Part shown: positions 916 to 18,347 of the stretch, in pieces
Numbering within the stretch: the first letter of the stretch is position 1
Layout: the number at the start of each line of letters is the position of its first letter
Source of the DNA: Azoarcus sp.
Lineage (GTDB): Bacteria > Pseudomonadota > Gammaproteobacteria > Burkholderiales > Rhodocyclaceae
DNA: 47,207 nt
NCBI GenBank assembly: GCA_013911595.1
Contig: JACESY010000004.1
Location: forward strand, 1-47,207
Direction: 5' to 3'
Made by a program: the position numbers and the translations under genes
Notes under the pieces: model-generated
Databases searched by the model: none
What the model was told of the DNA's origin: nothing
What the model saw: only the letters and a program-made list of their open reading frames with translations

Positions 916-3006
916 GTGGCGCGGGCCGTGGGTGTCGCCGCCTGGATCGCACGCTTTCGCGCGTCGGTGCGTCTCAAGCTGCTGGCGCTGGTGCTCGCAC
1001 CACTGGCCATCGGCGTGCCGCTGCTGCTCGGCCTGGTGTGGACCTGGGGCAACGAGGCCTACGATCGGCTGCTCAACTACAAGGTCGGCTCCGACATGGT
1101 CACCGCGCACGAGTACTTCGACCGCGTGCGCGAGGGCGTCGGCGCCGACGTGGTCGCGATCGCCGGTTCCCACCGGCTGGTGACCAGTCTCGCGGCTGCC
1201 GACGAGCCCGGATTCATCTCGCTGTTGTCACTGCTCTCGCGCGAACACGGGCTCGATTACCTGATGTTGCTCGATCTCGACGGCCACCCGCTGTCGAGTT
1301 CGCTCGCCGACGAGCCACCCGCGGCTTCGCGCCTGCAATGGCCGGTGGTCGCCGCGGCCTCCAGCGGCGCGGCGCATAACACCATCGAGCTGTTTTCGCC
1401 CGAGGCACTGGGCGCGCTCGATCCGGTGCTGCGCCTGCGCGCCTGGCTGCCGCTGGTGCCCACGCGCGCGGCCGCCCCCGACCCGCGCATGGCCGAGGAT
1501 CGCGGCATGATGATTCACGCCGCCGCTCCGGTGTATGACGCGGGCGGAGAGCTGGTCGCGGTGCTTGAGGGGGCGACCCTGCTCAACGGCAATCTCGGCC
1601 TGGTCGATCGCATCAACGAGATCGTCTATCGCGACGGCACGCTGCCGCTGGGCAGCAAGGGCACGGCGACGCTGTTCCTGGGGGATACGCGCATCGCCAC
1701 CAACGTGCGTCTGTTCGAGGGCGAGCGCGCGCTCGGTACGCGCGTGTCGCGGGCGGTGCGCGACTACGTGCTCGGCGATGGCGGCACCTGGCTGGGCACG
1801 GCCTTCGTCGTCAACGACGACTACGTGTCCGGCTACGAGCCGGTGGTCAACGGTCACGGTGAGCGCATCGGCATGCTCTACGTGGGCTTTCTCGAGCGCC
1901 CGCTGCGGACCGCGATGGTCTCTGCGATGCTCGTGCTGTGCGCGATCTTCGTGGTCCTGAGCATCATCGGCACGCTGCTCAGCCTGCGCTGGGCACGCAA
2001 CGTGTTCGGGCCGATCGAACGCATGAACCGCGTGATTGGCCGCGTCGAGGATGGTGAGACCGGTGCGCGCGTCGGCCCGGTGGCGAGCCGCGACGAACTG
2101 GGTCGGCTGGCGGTCGAGTTCGACCATCTGCTCGACACCCTGCAGGCCAAGCGCGAAGAGCTGCAACGCTGGGCCGATGAACTCGACCGCAAGGTGGCCG
2201 AGCGCACCGCCGAGCTCGAGGAGGCCAACGAGACCCTGCGCCGCGCCCAGCAGCAACTGGTCATGAGTGAGAAGCTCGCCGCCATCGGCGAACTCACGGC
2301 CGGCGTCGCGCACGAGGTCAACAATCCGGTCGCCGTGATCCAGGGCAACCTCGACGTGATGAAGTCCTTGCTGGGCCCCGCGGCCGATCCGGTGCAGCGC
2401 GAGATCGGACTGATCCACGCCCAGGTCGACCGCATCCGGCTGATCGTCACCAAGTTGCTTCAGTTCGCCCGCCCCGGCGATTTCGCCGGCTACACCGAGG
2501 CCGTGGACATCGCGCCGGTCGTGCAGGACTGCCTGGTGCTGACCGCGCACAACCTGGACCGCAACGACATCGAGGTGGTCGCGCGGCTGGAGGCAACGGT
2601 GCCGGTCGAGATCAACCGCGGCGAACTTCAGCAGGTGTTGATCAATCTGATCGTCAACGCCGCCCAGGCCATGCCCGCGGGTGGCACGCTGACCATCGCG
2701 GCGCACGACTGGAACGAAGCCGACGGCACACCGGCCGGTGTGGAACTGGTGGTGCGCGACACCGGCATGGGCATTGCGCCCGAGGATCTGGCGACCATCT
2801 TCGATCCGTTCTTCACGACCAAGAAAGAGAGCGGAACCGGACTGGGTCTGTCGGTGACCTACACCATCATCGAGCGCTATGGCGGGCGCATCACCGTGGC
2901 CAGCCAGCCCGGCGAGGGTGCGGAGTTCCACTTGCGGTTGCGTCGTCAGGCGGTGTTCCAGGGTGGGCCGGAGGCGCCCGGCTTCATGCGCCGCTGGAAG
3001 GGCTGA
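916..3006 (+). CDS. Membrane sensor histidine kinase (periplasmic Cache-like domain, HAMP, HisKA, HATPase)
   Basis: Two TM segments flanking a ~270 aa extracytoplasmic region, H-box GVAHEVNNPVAVIQGN, N-box LINLIVNAAQAM, G-boxes DTGMGIAPEDL and GTGLGLSV; GTG start with GAGG upstream. Confidence 0.92.
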   Translation: MARAVGVAAWIARFRASVRLKLLALVLAPLAIGVPLLLGLVWTWGNEAYDRLLNYKVGSDMVTAHEYFDRVREGVGADVVAIAGSHRLVTSLAAADEPGFISLLSLLSREHGLDYLMLLDLDGHPLSSSLADEPPAASRLQWPVVAAASSGAAHNTIELFSPEALGALDPVLRLRAWLPLVPTRAAAPDPRMAEDRGMMIHAAAPVYDAGGELVAVLEGATLLNGNLGLVDRINEIVYRDGTLPLGSKGTATLFLGDTRIATNVRLFEGERALGTRVSRAVRDYVLGDGGTWLGTAFVVNDDYVSGYEPVVNGHGERIGMLYVGFLERPLRTAMVSAMLVLCAIFVVLSIIGTLLSLRWARNVFGPIERMNRVIGRVEDGETGARVGPVASRDELGRLAVEFDHLLDTLQAKREELQRWADELDRKVAERTAELEEANETLRRAQQQLVMSEKLAAIGELTAGVAHEVNNPVAVIQGNLDVMKSLLGPAADPVQREIGLIHAQVDRIRLIVTKLLQFARPGDFAGYTEAVDIAPVVQDCLVLTAHNLDRNDIEVVARLEATVPVEINRGELQQVLINLIVNAAQAMPAGGTLTIAAHDWNEADGTPAGVELVVRDTGMGIAPEDLATIFDPFFTTKKESGTGLGLSVTYTIIERYGGRITVASQPGEGAEFHLRLRRQAVFQGGPEAPGFMRRWKG

Positions 3007-3112: not shown

Positions 3113-4510
<1,398 letters not shown>

Positions 4511-4526
4511 GCGCGGGAGTGTGCGC

Positions 4527-5048
4527 ATGAAGGTGATCGGATTTGCCGGCTGGTCTGGCAGCGGCAAGACCACGCTCATCGAGCGGGTCATCGAGGTGCT
4601 TGCCGGGCGTGGGCTCGCGGTGTCGCTGATCAAGCACGCCCATCACAAGTTCGACGTCGACCAGCCGGGCAAGGACTCCTACCGCCATCGCCATGCCGGC
4701 GCGCGCGAGGTTCTGGTCAGCTCGGGCAACCGCTGGGCGCTGATCCACGAGCTGCGCGGTGCGCCGGAGATGCCGCTGGATGCGCTGCTGGGCAAGCTCT
4801 CCGACTGCGACATCGCAATCGTCGAGGGCTTCAAGCGCGCGCACATCGACAAGATCGAGATCTACCGCGCGGGCGCGAGCGAGTCGATGCTGTTCCCGCA
4901 CGATGCGCACATCGTCGCGGTCGCGACCGATGTCGCGGATCTGGACACCGGCGGGCGGGCGCGGCTCGACGTCAACGACCCGGTCGAAGTCGCCGATTTC
5001 GTCATGGCGCATTGCCTGGGGCGGGCGCCGCTGGATCAGGCCGGCTGA
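4527..5048 (+). CDS. mobB: Molybdopterin-guanine dinucleotide biosynthesis protein B
   Basis: MKVIGFAGWSGSGKTTLIERVI...LIKHAHHKFDVDQPGKDSYRHRHAGA is the MobB signature; GTPase-like P-loop. Confidence 0.93.
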   Translation: MKVIGFAGWSGSGKTTLIERVIEVLAGRGLAVSLIKHAHHKFDVDQPGKDSYRHRHAGAREVLVSSGNRWALIHELRGAPEMPLDALLGKLSDCDIAIVEGFKRAHIDKIEIYRAGASESMLFPHDAHIVAVATDVADLDTGGRARLDVNDPVEVADFVMAHCLGRAPLDQAG

Positions 5049-5084: not shown

Positions 5085-5786
5085 ATGGATCGACGTTCCT
5101 TCGTACGCAACTGCACCCTGGCCGCCGGCCTGTTCGCCAGCGGCGTGGCGGTGCCCGCCCGTGCCGCGCCGCGCAGCTATGCCCGCGTGCGTCTGCTCAA
5201 TGCGAATGGCGAGCCGCTGCGCGCGTCGACCCTGGAGCCGCGCGCGCAATATGTGTTCGCCTATCCGTTCGCGGCCACGCCGTGCTTTCTGTTCGATCTG
5301 GGGCAAGCGGTGCCGGGACGCAACGGCCTCGAGACCGAGGCCGGTGCACACTACGACTGGCCTGGAGGGGTCGGGCCCAGGCGTTCGCTGGTGGCGTATT
5401 CGGCAATCTGCGCGCACAAGATGGCGCATCCGACGCCGACCATCAGCTACATCTCGTTCCGGCCGGCGCGCAACGAATACGAGCCTGCGGCCGGTGTGAT
5501 CTCGTGCTGTGCCGAGAACAGCCGCTACGACCCGGCCGGCGGCGCGCGCGTGATCGACGGGCCAGCGGATCAGCCGCTGGCCGCGATCCTGCTCGAACAC
5601 GATGCGGCCAGCGATGGCCTGTTCGCGGTCGGCACGCTCGGTGGCGAGATGTTCCGGCGCTTCTTCGACGAGTTCGAAGCGCGGTTGTCGCTGGAGTATC
5701 CGAATGGCGACGCGCGCCAGCCGTTGGCGGGGGAGTCGATCGTGCGTCGCCTCGAGAACTTCAGCGACAATGTCGTCTCATGCTGA
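5085..5786 (+). CDS. TAT-exported Rieske-like [2Fe-2S] domain protein with atypical ligand set
   Basis: Twin-arginine signal MDRRSFVRNCTLAAGLF; Rieske-like motif 1 ICAHKM; motif 2 region SCCAENSRYDP aligning with CPCHGSxYD. Confidence 0.7.
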   Translation: MDRRSFVRNCTLAAGLFASGVAVPARAAPRSYARVRLLNANGEPLRASTLEPRAQYVFAYPFAATPCFLFDLGQAVPGRNGLETEAGAHYDWPGGVGPRRSLVAYSAICAHKMAHPTPTISYISFRPARNEYEPAAGVISCCAENSRYDPAGGARVIDGPADQPLAAILLEHDAASDGLFAVGTLGGEMFRRFFDEFEARLSLEYPNGDARQPLAGESIVRRLENFSDNVVSC

Positions 5787-7670: not shown

Positions 7671-8669
7671 TCAGTCTTCGTCATCACTGATGTACTCGCG
7701 CAGGCGCCGCTCCAGCGTCTTGCGCGACACTCCCATGCGGCGGGCCGCTTCCGACTTGTTGCCGTTGCACGCGGCCAGCACGCGTTGCATGTGACGGCGC
7801 TTGACCTCGGCCAGCGGCAGATCGGCCGGATAGCCGCTGGCACCGAGGGCCTGCAGGGCCTGCGGGTCGATCGGTTCGATGCGCAGGCAGGCATCGGGGG
7901 ACTGGCCGAGCAGGATGGAGCGCTCGACCAGATTGCGCAGCTCGCGCACGTTGCCCGGCCAGGCGTGTTGCTCGAGCCGGCGCAGCCCGGTGCGTGTGGG
8001 CGCGACGGGGGGCAGGCCGAACACCACCGAGAACTGACGCGCGAAGAAGTCCACCAGGGGCGCGACATCCTCCGGGCGCTCGCGCAGCGGCGGCATGCGC
8101 AGCGCGAGCACGTTCAGCCTATAGAACAGGTCGTCGCGAAAGCCGCCAGCGTCGACCATGCGCCCCAGGTCGCGGTTGGTGGCCGCGACGATGCGCACAT
8201 CCACGGCCAGTTCGTCGTCGGCGCCGACGGGGCGCACCCGCAGGGTCTCGAGCACGCGCAGCAGCTTGGCCTGCAGGAAGGCCGGCAGTTCGCCAATTTC
8301 GTCGAGAAACAGGGTGCCGCCGTCGGCGTGCACGAACAATCCCTCGCGCTCCTGTGCCGCGCCGGTAAAGGCTCCCCGCGCATGACCGAACAACTCGCTG
8401 TCGAGCAGCTCGGGCGACATCGAGCCGCAGTTGATCGCGACGAAGCGTCCCGTGCGTCCGCTGTAGTGATGCAGGCTCGCCGCCGCCACTTCCTTGCCTG
8501 TTCCAGATTCACCCTCGATGAGCACCGTGGTGCGTGACGGCGCGACACGTCGCAGCAGCGCGACGATTTCGCGCATCGAGGCGCTCTCGCCGACGACCCC
8601 GGCTGCGTCCGTGCGCAGATCCTGCGCTGCGGGGGGTGGAGCGTGCGGATCGGATTGGAGGATCACCAT
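7671..8669 (-). CDS. Sigma-54-dependent AAA+ activator lacking a receiver/sensor domain (central domain + Fis HTH)
   Basis: [60 protein letters not shown]; only ~25 residues precede the AAA+ domain. Confidence 0.92.
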
Positions 8670-8712
8670 CGTGCTTCAATCGCTCCCTGTCGAATGCCTT
8701 TGAGCGACATTT

Positions 8713-8740
8713 TGACCCTGTTCGGATCGAAAGTGGGTCA
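8713..8740. promoter_or_regulatory. Candidate activator-binding inverted repeat TGACCC-N16-GGGTCA
   Basis: Perfect 6-bp arms read directly; in the divergent intergenic region upstream of the -24/-12 promoter. Confidence 0.45.
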
Positions 8741-8823
8741 GATTATCCGCGCACCGCGATAAACCATGGCCCAAATCGGTGTGTTCCGCCCTGGAGGCGG
8801 ATCCTGATCTCATCCGCGGGTCG

Positions 8824-8842
8824 TGCACCGCAGCATGGTGCA
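8824..8842. promoter_or_regulatory. Candidate activator-binding inverted repeat TGCACC-N7-GGTGCA
   Basis: Perfect 6-bp arms; about 120 bp upstream of the -24 element. Confidence 0.4.
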
Positions 8843-8944
8843 TTTTGTCGCCACATCCCGAAAACTGCGTCAATTCGTCGCTAAGTGTCGCTGTGTCGTC
8901 CGAGAAAAACCTTTTAGGTAAAGGTGTTTACGTGTTTTCACGCT

Positions 8945-8961
8945 TTGGCATAGCGGTTGCT
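8945..8961 (+). promoter_or_regulatory. Sigma-54 (-24/-12) promoter for FDH operon: TTGGCATAGCGGTTGCT
   Basis: GG (8947-8948) and GC (8959-8960) separated by exactly 10 nt; TGGCA and TTGCT boxes match consensus. Confidence 0.85.
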
Positions 8962-9009
8962 ATCAACTATAAAAAGAACCTAGGCAATCGCCTGCATAGG
9001 AGTCGCCGT

Positions 9010-9579
9010 TTGAATCAACAAATGCAGTCCGACGATCACGCCGCAGCCACCTGGTCCCACGACGCGACCCTGCCCGTGGCTGTGATGATCGCGTCGCCGC
9101 CGCCCGAGCGCGCGTCGGACGCAATGCTCTGGCACGTCACCGGCGTGGTGGTTGGCGAGCACTTCGCTTCGCCCACACGCGAGTGCACCAAGGTGCGCTC
9201 CGGGCCGAACGGCGACATGTTTCTGTGGCGCGGTTTCTCGCTGCATCTGCGCCCGGCGCAGGCTGAGGACTACTCGCTGAATCTGGGCAGCGACCGCCCC
9301 GAGGTGTTCGTGATCGGGCGCTTCGCGGCCGATGGCGGTTTCGAGCCCTGGGAGGTCACGGTCAGCCTGGACCGAGCGCAGAATCTGGATGCGACCGACC
9401 TGCGCGGTGCCGAGGACGTGGTGCTGGCCGCACCCATGCCCGACGAGGTCGGCGTATGGCTCGAGGCCTTCGTCAACGAGCACTACGTTCCGCGCAAGCG
9501 TGGCAAGGGCCGAGGCAAGCGACGCAGCAAGGCGATCTATGACGCCGAAGTGGGTGACTGGGCTGGAGACGAGACATGA
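9010..9579 (+). CDS. DUF3305-type formate dehydrogenase-associated protein
   Basis: TTG start with AGGAG 7 nt upstream (the ORF-track start at 8779 lies upstream of the -24/-12 promoter); VTGVVVGE...LWRGFSLHLRPAQAEDYSLNLGSDRPEVFVI; first gene before a DUF3306 gene. Confidence 0.8.
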   Translation: MNQQMQSDDHAAATWSHDATLPVAVMIASPPPERASDAMLWHVTGVVVGEHFASPTRECTKVRSGPNGDMFLWRGFSLHLRPAQAEDYSLNLGSDRPEVFVIGRFAADGGFEPWEVTVSLDRAQNLDATDLRGAEDVVLAAPMPDEVGVWLEAFVNEHYVPRKRGKGRGKRRSKAIYDAEVGDWAGDET

Positions 9580-10244
9580 TGGACGAGTCGCGCAACGACA
9601 TCGCGGAGCAGGACGGCGGCGTGCCGTTCCTGTCGCGCTGGTCGCGGCGCAAGCTCGGCCGGGAGGTCGAGGCGCCGCGCGAGTCCGAGGCCGTCCCGGC
9701 GCCGGTCGAGGCTGAGGCGACCGAAGCACGGGAAGACGACCCGATCGACGCGCGCACCGGCAAGCGCCGCTCGGAGTTGAGCGACGAGGACATGCCCGAT
9801 GTCGAGACGCTCTCCCCCGACGCCGACGTCTCGATGTTCTTCGGCGGCCAGGTGTCGCAGTCGCTGCGTATGCGGGCGCTCGCCAAGGTGTTCAGCAACC
9901 CCAAATACAACGTGTGGTGCGAGTGTGCGGAGTACGCTGAGGACTACAACGCCTTCCTGCCGATGGGCGACATCGTGCCGCATGATCTGAAACAGGCCAT
10001 CGTGCGCGAAGCCGACAAGCTCTACCGCCGCCTGACCGACAAGGGGCTGCGTTTGACCCCCGAGCAGGCCGAGGCGCACATCGCCGCCGAAATGCGTGGT
10101 GAGCGTGTGCCTGATCTGGAGTCGGCGCTCGCGGCCGCGCAGACCGACGAGACGCAACAAGGCGACACGGACCACGGGATGTCCGATGTGGCCGCCGACG
10201 AACCTGCGGGGCGCATGCCGCCCCCCGACAAAGAGGCCCTATGA
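9576..10244 (+). CDS. DUF3306-type formate dehydrogenase-associated protein
   Basis: FLSRWSRRKLGRE N-terminus, ALAKVFSNPKYNV..DGL-like core; ATGA overlap with upstream gene. Confidence 0.8.
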   Translation: MMDESRNDIAEQDGGVPFLSRWSRRKLGREVEAPRESEAVPAPVEAEATEAREDDPIDARTGKRRSELSDEDMPDVETLSPDADVSMFFGGQVSQSLRMRALAKVFSNPKYNVWCECAEYAEDYNAFLPMGDIVPHDLKQAIVREADKLYRRLTDKGLRLTPEQAEAHIAAEMRGERVPDLESALAAAQTDETQQGDTDHGMSDVAADEPAGRMPPPDKEAL

Positions 10245-11974
10245 TCGATCTGAGCAGTCTCTACGAAGATCCCGTATTGCGCAGTGGCGAGGCGGCTTCC
10301 GCCCCGCGCATGGCGGCGCTCGAGGCGGCCTATTCGGTGGATGTCGACGCGACGTCCCTCGTCGCCTACGAGTCGACCGGCTACCTGCTGATCATCGGTG
10401 CCGAGCGCGATGCGCTCGAGTGCGCCGACCAGTTGCGCGAGCGCCTTCACTGCACGGTAGTGGCGACGACGGCTGCGAACGCGCTGTCTGACGAAGCCAG
10501 GCGTGCGCGCGACGACGCCGCCGCGCGCGTGCAGTTGCTGCGCGGCGAGCCGGGCGAGCTCTCCGGCCATCTGGGGCGCTTCACGATGGCGATGCGCCTG
10601 CCCGACGGCAAGGAAGTGTCACCGGCGGCACTTACGCGCCCCGACCGGCCGTGGTTCGATCTGGTGCTTGATCTGCGCCGCGAGCCGTCGATGCGTCATG
10701 AGGTGCCACCGTTCGGCTATTACGCGCCGGCGGGTGACTCCACGCGGCTGATCGAGATGCTCACCGAAATTCCGGAGATGACCGGCGAGTTCGAGAAGCC
10801 GCGTTTCTTCGCCTACAACGCCGACATCTGTGCCCATGGTGACTCCGGCCTGAGCGGCTGTACGCGCTGTCTGGACGCCTGTCCGACCGGTGCGATCAAG
10901 TCGCTGGGCGATCTGGTCGACGTCGACCCCTATCTGTGCCAGGGCGCCGGCACCTGTACCAGCGTGTGCCCGACCGGGGCGATGACCTATGCCTATCCGG
11001 GCCCGCGCGACCAGATCGCACGCATCAAGCGCATGCTCGCCACCTTCCGCGAGGCCGGTGGCGAGCAACCGGTACTGATCTTCCACGATGAGGAGTCCGG
11101 GCTGGAGCGGCTCAACTCGCTGGCCGACGGATTGCCGCCGAACGCCCTGCCGGTGCAACTGGCCGAGATTGGCGCGGCCGGCATCGATACCTGGCTGGCC
11201 GCCTTGGCCTACGGCGCGAGCCGTATCGTGCTGCTCGACACCGCCGCCGTGCCGCCGACCGTGCGTGCCGCGATGCGCGAGCAGATCGGCTACGCGCGCT
11301 CGCTGCTCGATGCCATGGGTCTGGACGGCTCGGCGCGCCTGGTGTGGCTGGGAAGTGATGACCATCCCGACGAGGTGCTGCCCTGTAGCCTGCCGCCGGC
11401 CGTAGGTCGCGCGGCAAGCTTCGATACCTTCAACGAGAAGCGCGGCACGCTGCGCCTGGCGCTCGATCACCTGTACGAGCACGCGCCGCAGCGTCCGCCG
11501 GTCACGCCACTGGCTGCAGGTGCGCCGTTCGGCGAGATCATCGTCGACCGCGACGCCTGTACCTTGTGCATGTCCTGTTCCCAGGTGTGCCCGACGCGCG
11601 CGATCACCGACGCCGTCGATACCCCGCGCCTGTCCTTCACCGAAGACCTGTGCGTGCAGTGCGGGTTGTGCGCCAAGGCCTGTCCGGAAGACGCGATCAC
11701 GCTCGAGGCGCGTTTCCTGTTCGACTGGGATGAGCGCCGCAAGCCTCGCGTTCTCAACGAGGAAGAACCCTTCTGCTGCATCCGCTGCGGCACGCCCTTC
11801 GCCACCCAGAGCGTCATCGGCCGCATGACCGAGAAGCTCTCCGGTCACCACATGTTCCAGTCGGACGAGGCCATTCGCCGCCTGCAGATGTGCGGCGACT
11901 GCCGAGTCACGGACATGTTTGCGAAGGATCTGGAAGGCGGCTCCAAGCCGCGCTGGCTCGGACCGAGGGATTGA
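10241..11974 (+). CDS. Poly-[4Fe-4S] ferredoxin-like protein of FDH cluster
   Basis: CTRCLDACPTG, CTSVCPTG, CTLCMSCSQVCPT, CVQCGLCAKACPED cluster motifs, plus C-terminal CCIRCG...CGDC; ATGA overlap with upstream gene. Confidence 0.88.
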   Translation: MIDLSSLYEDPVLRSGEAASAPRMAALEAAYSVDVDATSLVAYESTGYLLIIGAERDALECADQLRERLHCTVVATTAANALSDEARRARDDAAARVQLLRGEPGELSGHLGRFTMAMRLPDGKEVSPAALTRPDRPWFDLVLDLRREPSMRHEVPPFGYYAPAGDSTRLIEMLTEIPEMTGEFEKPRFFAYNADICAHGDSGLSGCTRCLDACPTGAIKSLGDLVDVDPYLCQGAGTCTSVCPTGAMTYAYPGPRDQIARIKRMLATFREAGGEQPVLIFHDEESGLERLNSLADGLPPNALPVQLAEIGAAGIDTWLAALAYGASRIVLLDTAAVPPTVRAAMREQIGYARSLLDAMGLDGSARLVWLGSDDHPDEVLPCSLPPAVGRAASFDTFNEKRGTLRLALDHLYEHAPQRPPVTPLAAGAPFGEIIVDRDACTLCMSCSQVCPTRAITDAVDTPRLSFTEDLCVQCGLCAKACPEDAITLEARFLFDWDERRKPRVLNEEEPFCCIRCGTPFATQSVIGRMTEKLSGHHMFQSDEAIRRLQMCGDCRVTDMFAKDLEGGSKPRWLGPRD

Positions 11975-11978
11975 GACG

Positions 11979-12590
11979 ATGAGCGAACAGGCATTCGAAT
12001 CCGCCACCGAAACCGATCCGGTCGAAGCGCTGCGCGCCGGCACCTGGTCGCTGCTCGGGAGACTGTTGATGGGACCGCCGGACGCCGAGACGCTGGGTCG
12101 TCTCGTCGAGGTCGGCTCGGCCGGCCCGGCCGGCGACGCCATCGGCGAGGCCTGGCAGCGTCTCGGCGAAGCCGCGCGTACGGCACGTGACGATGCGTTG
12201 CAGCGCGAATATCAGGACGTGTTCATCGGCGTCGGCGGCGGCGAGATCACACCGTATTCGTCATGGTATCTGCGCGGCATGCTCGCCGATCGCCCGCTCA
12301 TCGAGCTGCGCGACGATCTGGCCGCGCTCGGCATCGAGATGGGCGAGGGCTGCAGCGAGACCGAGGATCACGCAGGCGCGATCTGCGAAACCATGGCCTT
12401 CGTGATCGTCGATGAAGACGTCGATCTCGACTGGCAGCGCGACCTGTTCCGTCGCCACGTCGATAGCTGGATGGGGCGACTTTTCGAGGACATCGGGAAA
12501 GCGCCCAGCGCGGATTTCTACCGCGCCGTGGCAGCGCTCGGCGACGCCTTCGTGGCGCTCGAGCGCAGGGTTTATGCAATGTCGGCGTGA
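11979..12590 (+). CDS. TorD/DmsD-family molybdoenzyme chaperone
   Basis: All-helical ~200 aa protein with YQDVFIG...TPYSSWYLRGMLADRPLIELR, typical of TorD-like chaperones; precedes fdhA. Confidence 0.85.
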   Translation: MSEQAFESATETDPVEALRAGTWSLLGRLLMGPPDAETLGRLVEVGSAGPAGDAIGEAWQRLGEAARTARDDALQREYQDVFIGVGGGEITPYSSWYLRGMLADRPLIELRDDLAALGIEMGEGCSETEDHAGAICETMAFVIVDEDVDLDWQRDLFRRHVDSWMGRLFEDIGKAPSADFYRAVAALGDAFVALERRVYAMSA

Positions 12591-12656: not shown

Positions 12657-12866
12657 ATGATGAAGAGAGACGATGCAGGGCTGGAGTCCCGGCGCAAGTT
12701 CATGAAATCGATGGCCTTGACCGGGGGAGGCGTAGCCGTGGCCGCGACCATCGGCCAGGCATCGGCTGACGAGCCGCAGATCGACGACGGCGCGACGGTC
12801 GATCGCCCGACCGGCTACCACGAGACCCAGCACATCCGGGACTACTACGCCAAGGCGCAGTTCTAG
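12657..12866 (+). CDS. Small TAT-signal protein of the formate dehydrogenase region (TIGR02811-like)
   Basis: LESRRKFMKSMALTGGGVAVAATIG plus short tail GYHETQHIRDYYAKAQF; directly precedes fdhA. Confidence 0.85.
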   Translation: MMKRDDAGLESRRKFMKSMALTGGGVAVAATIGQASADEPQIDDGATVDRPTGYHETQHIRDYYAKAQF

Positions 12867-12914
12867 CGTGACCGAGACCGCCCCTGAGCGCGGTCATCTG
12901 TGAGGAGACGAGTC

Positions 12915-15794
12915 ATGAAATTGGTCAAGAAAAACGCTGCGGCGCCCAAGCCGATCATGGCGGGCCTGCTTGGCAAGACGGTCAGCCGTCGTGCCTTCCT
13001 GCGCGGCTCGGGGTTGGCTGTCGGGGGTGCTGCCGTCGCGGGCATGATGCCCGGGACGATGGTCAAGAAGGCGCGCGCAGCGCGCTCCATCGATCCGAAA
13101 GCGGAAATCAAGCAGATCAAGACGGTCTGCGGCCACTGTTCGGTGGGCTGTTCGACCATCGCCGAGGTCCAAAACGGTGTCTGGATCGGCCAGGAGCCCG
13201 CCTTCGACAGCCCGCTCAACCTCGGCGCACATTGCGCCAAGGGTGCGGCACTGCGCAACCATGGCCACAGCAAGCGCCGGGTCAAGTACCCGATGAAGAT
13301 GGTCGGCGGCAAGTGGGAGCGCATCAGCTGGGAACAGGCGATCGAGGAGATCGGCGACAAGCTGCTCGCGATCCGCGAGGAGTCCGGACCGGATGCGCTG
13401 TGGTTCGCGGGCTCTTCCAAGGCCAGCAACGAGGGTTCCTACCTGCAACGCAAGTTCGCGGCCTTCTGGGGTTCGAACAACTGTGACCACCAGGCGCGTA
13501 TCTGCCACTCCACCACGGTCGCGGGTGTTGCCAACACCTGGGGCTACGGCGCGATGACGAACTCGTACAACGACATGCTCAACGCCAAGAGCATCATCAT
13601 GTGCGGTTCCAACGCGGCCGAGGCCCACCCGGTGGCGATGCAGATGATCCTGCGCGCCAAGGAGCAGGGGACCAAGTTGATCGTCATGGACCCGCGCTTC
13701 ACGCGAACCGCGGCCCACTCCGACCTCTACGTGCGCTTCCGTTCCGGTACCGACGTTCCGCTGATCTGGGGCATCCTGTGGCATGTCTTCGAGAATCAGT
13801 GGGAAGACAAGGAGTACATCCAGCAGCGCGTCTACGGCATGGACAAGGTGCGTGAGGAAGTCGCCAAGTGGACCCCGCAGGAAGTCGAACGCGTGACCGG
13901 TGTCGGTGGCGATGCGCTGCTCGAAGTCGCCACGATGCTCGCCGAGAACCGGCCGGGCACCTTCGTGTGGTGCATGGGCGGCACGCAGCACACCATCGGT
14001 TCCAACTACGTGCGTGCCTATAACTGCCTGCAGCTCGCGCTGGGCAACATCGGCAAGGAAGGCGGCGGCGCCAACATCTTCCGCGGCCACGACAACGTCC
14101 AGGGTGCGACCGACGTCGGCCCCAACCCGGACAACCTGCCCGGCTACTACCCGATCAACGACGTGGGTTGGGGCCATTGGTCGCGTGTGTGGGGCGTCGA
14201 TCTGGACTGGCTCAAGGCGCGCTTCGACGACGCCGAGTACGACGACGGCAAGGGCGGCACGATGAAGCCGATGAATACCGGCGGCATCACGGTGTCGCGC
14301 TGGATCGACGGCGTGCTCGAGGACAAGGCCAACATCTCGCAGCGCGACAACATCCGCGCCGCAATGTTCTGGGGCCATGCGCCGAACTCGCAGACCCGTG
14401 GTCCCGAGATGAAACGCGCCTTCGAGAAGCTCGACCTGCTGGTAGTCATCGACCCGTATCCGACCGTCTCGGCCGTGCTGCATGACCGCAAGGAGAATAC
14501 CTATCTGTTGCCCGCGGCCACGCAGTTCGAACAGGCCGGTTCGGTCACCGCGTCGAACCGCTCGCTGCAGTGGCGTGACAAGGTCATCGAGCCGCTCTAC
14601 GAGCACAAGCCCGATTCCGAAATCGCCTATCGGCTGGCGGCGAAGCTCGGTTTTGCCGACGAGATGTTCAAGAACTACGAGATCGTCAACAACATGCCGA
14701 CTCCCGAGTCCGTGTTGCGCGAGATCAACCGTGGGACCTGGACGATCGGCTACACCGGGCAGAGCCCGGAGCGTCTGAAGGAGCACATGAAGAACCAGCG
14801 CCACTTTGACGTTGCGACGCTCAAGGCGCAGGGCGGGCCGCTCGACAACGAGACCTACGGTCTGCCGTGGCCCTGCTATGGCACGGCCGAGCTCAAGCAC
14901 CCGGGCACGCACGTGCTGTACGACCCGAGCAAGCACATCATGGAGGGCGGCGGCAACTTCCGTAACGCCTTCGGGACCGAGTACCAGGGCGAGAACCTGC
15001 TTGCCGAGGGCTCCTGGTCCAAGGGTGCGGAAATCCAGGGCGGCTATCCGCAATTCACCGCGGACATTCTCAAGCAGCTTGGCTGGTGGGATGAACTGAC
15101 GCCCGAGGAGAAGGCCGAGGCCGATGGCAGAAGCTGGACCACCGACCTGTCCGGCGGTATCCAGCGCGTGGTCATGGCGCACGGCTGCCACCCGTTCGGC
15201 AACGCCAAGGCGCGTGCCCACGTGTGGAACTTCCCGGACCCGATCCCGGTGCACCGCGAACCGTTGTACACGCCGCGCTACGACCTCGTGTCGGAGTTCC
15301 CGACCTACGACGACCGCAAGGTGTTCTACCGCCTGCCCACACGCTGGAAGTCTGTCCAGGCCAAGGACTACTCCGGGGAGTTCCCGCTCATCCACACCTC
15401 CGGCCGTCTGGTCGAATACGAGGGTGGTGGCGAGGAGACGCGTTCCAACCCGTGGCTCGCCGAGCTTCAGCAGAACATGTTCGTCGAGATCAATCCGGCC
15501 GATGCCAACGACGCCAACATCAAGGATGGGCAGACAGTCTGGCTGGAAGGCCCGGAAGGTGGCCGTATCCAGATCAAGGCAATGGTTACGACCCGCGTCG
15601 GGCGCGGCACGGTGTTCACGCCGTTCCACTTCGGCGGCCACTTCCAGGGGCAGGACCTGCTCGACAAGTACCCCGAGGGTTCCGCGCCCTATACCCGTGG
15701 CGAATCGACCAATACGGCGACGACCTACGGTTACGACGCGGTCACGATGATGCAGGAAACCAAGACCACGCTTTGCCGTGTGGTGCCCGCATAA
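12915..15794 (+). CDS. fdhA: Formate dehydrogenase catalytic (molybdopterin, Cys-type) alpha subunit
   Basis: TAT signal SRRAFLRGSGL, [4Fe-4S] motif CGHCSVGC, active-site region CDHQARICHSTTVAG with Cys codon TGC at 13503-13505, MopB-family domains. Confidence 0.95.
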   Translation: MKLVKKNAAAPKPIMAGLLGKTVSRRAFLRGSGLAVGGAAVAGMMPGTMVKKARAARSIDPKAEIKQIKTVCGHCSVGCSTIAEVQNGVWIGQEPAFDSPLNLGAHCAKGAALRNHGHSKRRVKYPMKMVGGKWERISWEQAIEEIGDKLLAIREESGPDALWFAGSSKASNEGSYLQRKFAAFWGSNNCDHQARICHSTTVAGVANTWGYGAMTNSYNDMLNAKSIIMCGSNAAEAHPVAMQMILRAKEQGTKLIVMDPRFTRTAAHSDLYVRFRSGTDVPLIWGILWHVFENQWEDKEYIQQRVYGMDKVREEVAKWTPQEVERVTGVGGDALLEVATMLAENRPGTFVWCMGGTQHTIGSNYVRAYNCLQLALGNIGKEGGGANIFRGHDNVQGATDVGPNPDNLPGYYPINDVGWGHWSRVWGVDLDWLKARFDDAEYDDGKGGTMKPMNTGGITVSRWIDGVLEDKANISQRDNIRAAMFWGHAPNSQTRGPEMKRAFEKLDLLVVIDPYPTVSAVLHDRKENTYLLPAATQFEQAGSVTASNRSLQWRDKVIEPLYEHKPDSEIAYRLAAKLGFADEMFKNYEIVNNMPTPESVLREINRGTWTIGYTGQSPERLKEHMKNQRHFDVATLKAQGGPLDNETYGLPWPCYGTAELKHPGTHVLYDPSKHIMEGGGNFRNAFGTEYQGENLLAEGSWSKGAEIQGGYPQFTADILKQLGWWDELTPEEKAEADGRSWTTDLSGGIQRVVMAHGCHPFGNAKARAHVWNFPDPIPVHREPLYTPRYDLVSEFPTYDDRKVFYRLPTRWKSVQAKDYSGEFPLIHTSGRLVEYEGGGEETRSNPWLAELQQNMFVEINPADANDANIKDGQTVWLEGPEGGRIQIKAMVTTRVGRGTVFTPFHFGGHFQGQDLLDKYPEGSAPYTRGESTNTATTYGYDAVTMMQETKTTLCRVVPA

Positions 15795-15818: not shown

Positions 15819-16409
15819 ATGGCCAGAATGAAATTTCTCTGTGACGCGGAGCGCTGCATCGAATGCCAGGCCTGTGTCACTGCGTGCAAGAACGAGCACG
15901 AGGTTCCCTGGGGGGTGAACCGTCGTCGCGTCATCGTGATGGACGACGGCCAGCCCGGCGAGAAGTCGGTCTCGGTGGCGTGCATGCACTGTACGGACGC
16001 GCCGTGCGCGGCGGTCTGTCCGGTGGACTGCTTCTACACCACCGACGACGGCATCGTGCTGCACGACAAGGACCTGTGCATCGGTTGTGGTTACTGCTTC
16101 TACGCGTGCCCGTTCGGCGCGCCGCAGTATCCGAAGCAGACCGCCTTCGGCGTGCGCGGCAAGATGGACAAGTGCACCTTCTGTGCCGGTGGCCCGGAAG
16201 ACACCAACTCCGAAGCCGAGCTCACGAAGTACGGCACCAACCGCATCGCCGAAGGCAAGCTGCCGCTGTGCGCCGAGATGTGTTCGACCAAGGCGCTGCT
16301 CGCCGGTGACGGCGACGTCGTCGCCGACATCTATCGGCAGCGCGTCATGCGTCGTGGCGGTCGGCCCCAGACCTGGGGCTGGCAGGCGGCCTACGGTACG
16401 GGCGCCTGA
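15819..16409 (+). CDS. fdhB: Formate dehydrogenase iron-sulfur beta subunit
   Basis: CIECQACVTACKNEH, CMHCTDAPCAAVCP, CIGCGYCFYACPFGAPQ motifs (four-cluster ferredoxin). Confidence 0.95.
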   Translation: MARMKFLCDAERCIECQACVTACKNEHEVPWGVNRRRVIVMDDGQPGEKSVSVACMHCTDAPCAAVCPVDCFYTTDDGIVLHDKDLCIGCGYCFYACPFGAPQYPKQTAFGVRGKMDKCTFCAGGPEDTNSEAELTKYGTNRIAEGKLPLCAEMCSTKALLAGDGDVVADIYRQRVMRRGGRPQTWGWQAAYGTGA

Positions 16410-16681: not shown

Positions 16682-17758
16682 ATGAGCGAAGCAAAATCCG
16701 CAAACCCGCAGCGGCGCTGGCGCGCGACGCTGTGGAGCATACTGGCGATCCTGGCGCTGTCCGTGGTTTTGCCGTCCATCGGCTACGTCATGGCGCAGTC
16801 GGGCGATGGCACTGCCTTCGGCGATCGCGACGCCAACCCGCGTGCCGAAATGTGGCGAGACGCGCGCGAGGGCGAAGGCGGCTTCACGGCCCAGAGCGGC
16901 CCGTATGTGACCAATACCATGATCTCCAACGTCGGCGAGAACTGGCGACAATTCCGCACCGGCCCGCTGATGGACTATGGCGGCTACTTTCTTGCCGCAG
17001 TGGTGATCCTGATCGCGCTGTTCTTCCTGATTTTCGGCCGATCCAAGATCGAGCACGGGCGATCGGGGATGACCATTCCCCGATGGAAGGCCTACGAGCG
17101 GGTACTGCACTGGTTCGTGGCGATTTCCTTCATCATCCTCGCGATCACCGGTCTGAGCCTGCTGTTCGGTCGCGAGGTACTGATCCCGTTGTTCGGCGGT
17201 GAGGGTTTCGCCGGGTTTGCACAACTTTCGATGACCGTGCACAACTATCTCGGGCCCGCATTCTCGGTCGGCGTGCTGTTGATGATCCTGCTGTGGGCGC
17301 GTCACAACATCCCGAACCGCACCGACATCGAGTGGTTCAAGGCCGGCGGCGGCATGGTCGGCAAGAAGCACCCGTCGGCCGGTAAGGCTAACGGTGGCGA
17401 GAAAGTGTGGTTCTGGGGTGGCGTGTTCCTGCTCGGCATCCTGGTGAGCGCCAGCGGCGTGATCCTCGATTTCCCGATCTGGGGTCAGACCCGCGGGGAT
17501 ATGGCGCTCGCACAGGGTGTGCACGCGATCGCCGCAATCCTGTGGATCGGCTTCTTCCTCGGCCACGCCTACATCGGTACGCTGGGCACGGAAGGTGCAC
17601 TCGAAGGCATGACGCGTGGGCGGGTCGACGTCAACTGGGCCAAGCAGCACCACGACCTGTGGTACGAGGACGAGATCGCCCGGGGCGTCAAGCCCGAGCC
17701 CGAGCCCGAGCAGTCTTCGTCCTCAGGTGGCGCCGGCGTGGGCCAGCCGAGTCACTGA
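16682..17758 (+). CDS. Formate dehydrogenase gamma subunit (cytochrome b556-type)
   Basis: WKAYERVLHWFVAISFIILAITGLSLLFGR, conserved HN / GHAYIG TM histidines; low-complexity PEPEPEPEQSSSSGG tail. Confidence 0.92.
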   Translation: MSEAKSANPQRRWRATLWSILAILALSVVLPSIGYVMAQSGDGTAFGDRDANPRAEMWRDAREGEGGFTAQSGPYVTNTMISNVGENWRQFRTGPLMDYGGYFLAAVVILIALFFLIFGRSKIEHGRSGMTIPRWKAYERVLHWFVAISFIILAITGLSLLFGREVLIPLFGGEGFAGFAQLSMTVHNYLGPAFSVGVLLMILLWARHNIPNRTDIEWFKAGGGMVGKKHPSAGKANGGEKVWFWGGVFLLGILVSASGVILDFPIWGQTRGDMALAQGVHAIAAILWIGFFLGHAYIGTLGTEGALEGMTRGRVDVNWAKQHHDLWYEDEIARGVKPEPEPEQSSSSGGAGVGQPSH

Positions 17759-17812: not shown

Positions 17813-17828
17813 CTTTACTGGAGTGGAT

Positions 17829-18347
17829 ATGAAGTATCTTCAGGTCGCCCGTCTCGATGACAGCGACGAGTACGTCTACAACGTCGCAGCCCGGACCGAT
17901 GAGATGGCCGTGACCGGGTCCTTCGTATTTTCGTTTGCCGAAGAGGATCCGGCCGAGCTCACCGGAAAACCGGCGCAAGCGTTTCGCAACGGATTCCTCG
18001 GGCTGGACAGCTTCGGCTGGGCAACCGTGGTGCGTGTGGTCGAGATCAGCGACGAGCAATATGGCGAAGCCATCGAGCGTCTCGCGCGGCATTTTGTCGA
18101 ACACTACGGAGCGCCGTCGATCGACGCCGCCTTGCCGGTGGCGCGCCAGGAGATCGAGTACGCCTCGGGTCTTTGCGAACACCCTGTTGGCACGATGCTG
18201 ACCGTGGAACGGCACGCCGAGAACGGAGAGATCCACGAATCCTTCAAGCGCGTTCAGCCGCGCCAGAATCAGGTCGCGGACTGGCAGGGCAACAGCGGTG
18301 AAGTCCGCATCTGGGACATGTTTCCGGAAGTCGACAGCAAGAACTGA
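17829..18347 (+). CDS. Uncharacterised conserved FDH-cluster protein
   Basis: ATG start after GGAG; 172 aa with no TM; last gene of the collinear FDH run. Confidence 0.75.
   Translation: MKYLQVARLDDSDEYVYNVAARTDEMAVTGSFVFSFAEEDPAELTGKPAQAFRNGFLGLDSFGWATVVRVVEISDEQYGEAIERLARHFVEHYGAPSIDAALPVARQEIEYASGLCEHPVGTMLTVERHAENGEIHESFKRVQPRQNQVADWQGNSGEVRIWDMFPEVDSKN

Follow-up and report, generated by a model that had tools for sequence, protein, structure and literature searches.

How is a respiratory formate dehydrogenase (FDH) operon of the DUF3305/DUF3306 type controlled, and could formate outside the cytoplasm be its signal? The best-known sigma-54 control of a formate dehydrogenase by formate is the cytoplasmic FhlA route. 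In the FhlA/formate hydrogenlyase regulon of Escherichia coli, formate, sigma-54 and an AAA+ activator control a formate dehydrogenase; FhlA senses formate in the cytoplasm by its own N-terminal domains, and the target is FDH-H plus hydrogenase. The locus discussed here lies in a stretch of 47,207 nucleotides from Azoarcus sp., hereafter called the window, and its features are collected in Table 1. DUF3305 and DUF3306 genes beside fdhGHI have been noted earlier, with regulation not addressed (PMC4464133). A survey from 2025 predicts sigma-54 control for some FDH-like COG3383 enzymes in Proteobacteria, and the passages considered mention neither a DUF3305 operon nor an enhancer, an activator or a kinase (PMC12316311). 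No earlier report of a circuit such as the one proposed below was found in the literature searched.

Table 1. Coordinates of the features in the window
Feature	Position	Strand	Remarks
Sensor histidine kinase	916..3006	+	sCache_3_3 + HAMP, HisKA, HATPase
NtrC-type response regulator	3113..4510	+	intact receiver, sigma-54 AAA+, Fis-type HTH
MobB, molybdenum cofactor (MGD) maturation	4521..5048	+	after regulator 3113-4510
Receiver-less sigma-54 activator	7671..8669	-	AAA+ with GAFTGA, Fis-type HTH; divergent from FDH operon
Outward-facing dyad TGCACC-N6-TGGTGCA	8824..8842	+	overlaps enhancer site and a reported stem
Candidate upstream activator (enhancer) site TGGTGCATTTTGTC	8836..8849	+	start 109 nt before -24 element
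Predicted -24/-12 sigma-54 promoter element TTGGCATAGCGGTTGCT	8945..8961	+	sequence, matrix scoring, conservation
Sigma-70-like TTGGCA-N17-TATAAA	8945..8973	+	hexamers 8945-8950 and 8968-8973; overlaps sigma-54 element
Shine-Dalgarno-like AGGAG	8998..9002	+	7 nt upstream of TTG 9010, which it serves
DUF3305 protein, first gene of operon	9010..9579	+	TTG start
DUF3306 protein	9576..10244	+	
Multi-4Fe-4S protein	10241..11974	+	
NarJ/TorD-type chaperone	11979..12590	+	
Small protein, twin-arginine-like start	12657..12866	+	sequence; no Pfam match
Formate dehydrogenase catalytic subunit	12900..15794	+	twin-arginine-like leader
FDH3-type beta subunit	15819..16409	+	NF038355 above cut-off
FDH gamma, membrane cytochrome b	16682..17758	+	TIGR01583 above cut-off

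The -24/-12 element and the start of the operon

The enzyme is assigned to the FDH3 type, with both the beta and the gamma subunit above the cut-offs of their models, and FdhD and a MobA-like gene come after the operon on the opposite strand. The initial annotation had proposed a sigma-54 promoter in front of this operon, and both the position and the spacing of TTGGCATAGCGGTTGCT are as it described: ten nucleotides separate the GG (8947-8948) from the GC (8959-8960), as in the -24/-12 geometry, and the 48 nucleotides from 8962 to 9009 lie between the element and the TTG of the DUF3305 gene. Compared with TGGCACG-N4-TTGCW, the element has two mismatches. Scored with an approximate Barrios-type matrix, it outranks every other sigma-54 match in the window, at 17.3 against 12.5 for the runner-up. 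A score of at least 17.3 was obtained in 3 of 5000 Markov-1 randomised 340-bp intergenic regions and, anywhere in the sequence, in 13 of 200 randomised versions of the whole window. The score taken alone is suggestive, good rather than decisive, and because it can be reached by chance in a window of this size, it is position and conservation that carry the argument for a promoter.

Conservation across relatives, which the initial annotation named as a check, is indeed observed. The element is found at the same place before DUF3305 in 16 FDH operons (the window and the relatives compared), and the intergenic sequence around it has otherwise diverged. Sites scoring at least 12.9 are present upstream of DUF3305 in the four nearest relatives (G001, G034, G131 and G010) as well as in 11 of the 18 named loci retrieved by way of the Fe-S gene, a set from Ectothiorhodospiraceae, Aquisalimonas, a Lysobacteraceae MAG and other sources. 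In a class-wide sample of 30 DUF3305 loci, 16 have a site scoring at least 13 at 84-118 nt before the domain match; these are 9 of the 12 loci with the sensor kinase discussed below and 7 of the 18 without it. The best promoter score among 30 scored DUF3305 control loci without this activator family was 10.5. In the matrix scan, no good -24/-12 site was found before DUF3305 in three genomes (G070-G072), and G070 and G072 carry good sites between the regulator gene and mobA. The genome to which the window belongs contains rpoN as well as one or more sigma-54 activators. On this evidence, TTGGCATAGCGGTTGCT is very probably the real sigma-54 promoter of the formate dehydrogenase operon.

The ORF-track start of the DUF3305 gene at 8779, already regarded as wrong in the initial annotation, is very unlikely, because the enhancer-like site and the promoter would then be coding, the start codon (TTG, or GTG in G131) and a GGAG behind the promoter are kept in relatives of three genera, and the upstream frame is closed by in-frame stops in two of them, 27 codons before the start in G034 and 18 codons before it in G010.

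The enhancer-like site, the activators and the sensor kinase

Beyond the promoter described initially, the locus contains two activators, an enhancer-like site and an overlapping sigma-70-like element. The candidate enhancer TGGTGCATTTTGTC is part of an imperfect dyad, TGGTGCA-N3-TGWCCCA, and is the sole match to the enhancer motif in the window and the sole exact match in the genome. A genome-wide search allowing two mismatches resulted in 13 matches versus 9 in the control, which is little excess. In seven genomes (the window, G001, G034, G131, L033, L035 and L041) the site lies 109-110 nt before the -24 element. With matrices built leaving the tested group out and compared with shuffles, an enhancer-like site was recovered in 14 of 16 loci, and no enhancer score above 9.9 was obtained in the 30 scored control loci that lack this activator. 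These observations suggest that TGGTGCATTTTGTC is an enhancer bound by an activator. Several relatives carry the motif again in the gap that separates the activator gene from mobA, which points to probable autoregulation and a regulon that includes molybdenum cofactor genes. Such sites are located at 9800-9840 in L118, 14086 in L123, 7769 in L125 and 8560-8730 in L127; the gap in L127 also holds a strong -24/-12 site.

Both activators have the architecture expected for action on sigma-54. The divergent activator (7671-8669) has an intact Walker A motif and GAFTGA loop and a Fis-type HTH; an N-terminal receiver is absent, only about 20-25 residues preceding the AAA+ domain, and the short copies in G001, G034 and G131 likewise have no receiver. 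The regulator at 3113-4510 has a receiver in which the acidic pair, phospho-Asp, Thr and Lys are all there. The recognition helix SRKTLER is common to both proteins, which may therefore bind one site, and this region (SRKTL) is nearly invariant among the activator orthologs. The best counterparts of the receiver-less activator in Ectothiorhodospiraceae-type genomes are full-length regulators of 57-64% identity, and in several of these genomes they are convergent with the same Mrp gene. Their receiver residues are intact in G063 and G067 and degenerate in G062, G064, G066 and G069. The receiver-less proteins form one clade (support 100/99) in a tree of which the deeper branches are poorly resolved, and the history of the short activator was likely one of receiver decay and loss. 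Among the Ectothiorhodospiraceae-type activators of L057-L069, receiver phosphorylation residues have been lost repeatedly, and GAFTSA replaces GAFTGA in three deep members.

The sensor domain of the kinase is an sCache_3_3 domain (E 1e-28). It also matches the chemoreceptor ligand-binding domains in PDB 8py0 and 8py1, which we take to be formate-bound structures, at a distant level (E about 1e-5), and its AlphaFold model, made with no alignment, has a pLDDT of 36, too low for use. The kinase residues R259, T262 and T275 fit the R-x2-T-x12-T formate triad with a spacing identical to that of PacF, in which R142, T145 and T158 influence the binding of formate (PMC12501870), and formate is bound by an sCache_3_3 domain that carries the residues reported for it (PMC12415202). 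Of 25 kinase homologs, 23 retain the triad; L178 has lost it, and one homolog is unreadable through a stop codon. The L178 kinase (8172-10034) is without two of the three triad residues and still adjoins an FDH operon. These three residues and the distant structural match make formate the candidate ligand of the kinase.

Class-wide, the kinase adjoins an NtrC-type regulator in 19 of 20 loci, and FDH or molybdenum cofactor genes are present too in 12 of these loci. Among 369 genomes of the class, 22 have the kinase, and DUF3305 is present in 18 of these, where about 2.7 would be expected (Fisher 9e-15, ignoring phylogeny). A search for the kinase in the Ectothiorhodospiraceae-type relatives found none, although they retain the promoter and the enhancer together with a regulator that often has a degenerate receiver, so that a formate phosphorelay is not a general requirement. 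G010 (L051), alone among the nearest relatives, is a natural loss experiment: no ortholog of either activator (best 45% identity) and no kinase was found, and the enhancer is missing from an upstream region that keeps the promoter core.

A predicted formate-induction circuit and its alternatives

These parts can be combined into a circuit, in which the operon would encode a Tat-exported, quinone-linked FDH3-type formate dehydrogenase. Formate outside the cytoplasm would bind the sCache_3_3 domain of the kinase, which would phosphorylate the NtrC-type regulator. This regulator, the receiver-less activator, or both would bind TGGTGCATTTTGTC about 110 bp upstream and drive open-complex formation by RNA polymerase-sigma-54 at TTGGCATAGCGGTTGCT. 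Transcription would start about 12 nt downstream of the element, and DUF3305 would be translated from the TTG. The receiver-less copy may provide a basal activity that needs no phosphorylation, or assemble into mixed hexamers. The cell would thus probably switch on its formate dehydrogenase upon detecting formate outside. The evidence for the promoter, enhancer, activators, kinase and triad, and for their conservation, is at the level of sequence, and from it we infer that formate is the ligand and that phosphate is transferred, as well as which of the activators occupies the enhancer and in which direction the operon responds. As a whole, a circuit of sigma-54 promoter, enhancer, activators and formate-sensing kinase driving the FDH operon is considered likely. 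Against it stand seven kinase-negative genomes of the class that also have a good promoter site, and the sigma-70-like element that overlaps the promoter in the clade of the window.

The -24 part of TTGGCATAGCGGTTGCT doubles as a -35-like hexamer, TTGGCA, located 17 nt before a -10-like hexamer, with 5+5 matches of 12 for the pair. TTGGCA-N17-TATAAA/C is present in all five genomes of the window clade (the window, L051, L052, L053 and L129), which represent three genera, and a sigma-70 start may therefore overlap the sigma-54 element in this clade. A dual promoter, with TTGGCA serving as both -24 and -35, sigma-70 giving basal and sigma-54 induced expression, would explain why the pair is kept in the five genomes while the remaining stretch after the -12 varies between genera, and why G010 keeps it though the activators, kinase and enhancer are gone; in that genome, sigma-70 may have taken over. 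However, the final T is missing from the -10 hexamer, and a stricter sigma-70 scan that needs a T at -10 position 6 did not list the pair and found nothing. The pair is also absent in all 11 wider relatives (0/11), each of which keeps the -24/-12, and the AT-rich stretch past the -12 could simply aid melting. A dual promoter is rather unlikely but a serious alternative. The stronger claim that this is purely a sigma-70 promoter, with a coincidental resemblance to -24/-12, can point to the same overlapping pair, but outside the clade it is the -24/-12 that stays conserved, alongside the enhancer and the activators, which makes this claim highly improbable.

Other alternatives accept sigma-54 and change the activator. 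The receiver-less protein could drive the operon alone, in the manner of PspF, with control exerted by its own level of expression or by an anti-activator; the kinase/regulator pair would then have another target. Its gene is divergent from and adjacent to the promoter, and in relatives that share the enhancer it is common for the counterpart to have a degenerate receiver and no such kinase nearby. Yet the kinase/regulator pair is located in the same cluster with MobB and co-occurs class-wide with this FDH, and the recognition helix shared by both activators also speaks against a separate target; sole control by the receiver-less protein is thus unlikely. Nitrogen control, with NtrC acting through TGGTGCA half-sites, is brought up by the outward dyad at 8824-8842, which overlaps the enhancer. 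The sequence TGGTGCA presumably resembles an NtrC half-site, but the spacing within the dyad is wider than what we take to be that of an NtrC site, and conservation does not extend to its left arm. What is conserved is TGGTGCATTTTGTC, of which the only exact genome copy is here, and the enhancer vanishes together with the FDH-linked activators in G010, so that control by NtrC is very hard to credit. Finally, a chance match, or coding DNA of the ORF starting at 8779, would agree with the score being reached in randomised windows and with the frame being open, and is nevertheless improbable in the extreme given the position and conservation of the element, the in-frame stops in G034 and G010 and the kept start codon and Shine-Dalgarno sequence.

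Relation to known systems

The sigma-54 formate-induction circuit would be a variation on known NtrC-type systems, with formate sensing and enhancer binding as its predicted parts. It has the kinase and receiver-AAA+-Fis regulator architecture of AtoSC, ZraSR and NtrBC, and differs from them in sensor domain and target. AtoC, NtrC and ZraR as identities of the regulator, and AtoS and ZraS as identities of the kinase, were rejected, with scores below the curated cut-offs. The parallel with FhlA drawn in the initial annotation extends to formate and sigma-54 as such but not to the proteins: neither activator is FhlA (273.7 and 247.8 bits versus 830 bits for the FhlA model), the candidate sensor is the periplasmic sCache domain of a separate membrane kinase, and the target is a respiratory FDH3. 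The receiver-less activator shares its AAA+ and HTH organisation with PspF, but no psp genes were seen beside it, and its score of 259.5 bits is below the TIGR02974 cut-off of 443.55 bits. The formate chemoreceptors PacF, Atu0526 and McpF have a Cache_3-type sensor with a conserved Arg (PMC12501870; PMC12415202), and PacF also shares the two Thr of the triad with the kinase; here, in contrast, the domain belongs to a histidine kinase whose gene neighbours that of an NtrC-type regulator, and not to a chemotaxis receptor.

The claim that sigma-54 controls a respiratory DUF3305/DUF3306-type FDH has gained from rpoN, the divergent sigma-54 activator, the second kinase/NtrC-type pair, the fixed distance of the enhancer-like site and the conserved -24/-12. 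The locus thereby points to a second route of formate control, in which a kinase reads a signal outside the cytoplasm and the target is a respiratory FDH, and DUF3305/DUF3306 operons gain a predicted inducer. The kinase/regulator pair is distributed across many families within the class and accompanies the DUF3305-type FDH, so that the prediction can be tested in many organisms. A wider reading, offered tentatively as quite possible in all its parts together, is that a widespread unnamed two-component system, consisting of a periplasmic formate-sensing kinase and an NtrC-type regulator, activates respiratory FDH via sigma-54, that the receiver of its activator decays or disappears in several lineages, and that the -24 is also a -35 in the clade of the window, giving a route from sigma-54 to sigma-70 control as in G010. 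Receiver decay and the overlapping sigma-70-like element would then form a natural series on how enhancer control relaxes or disappears.

Two further genes were observed at the locus. A DUF6505 protein (17820-18347) follows directly after the FDH cytochrome gene, and an ORF of 233 aa without a Pfam match (5085-5786) is located between MobB and Mrp.
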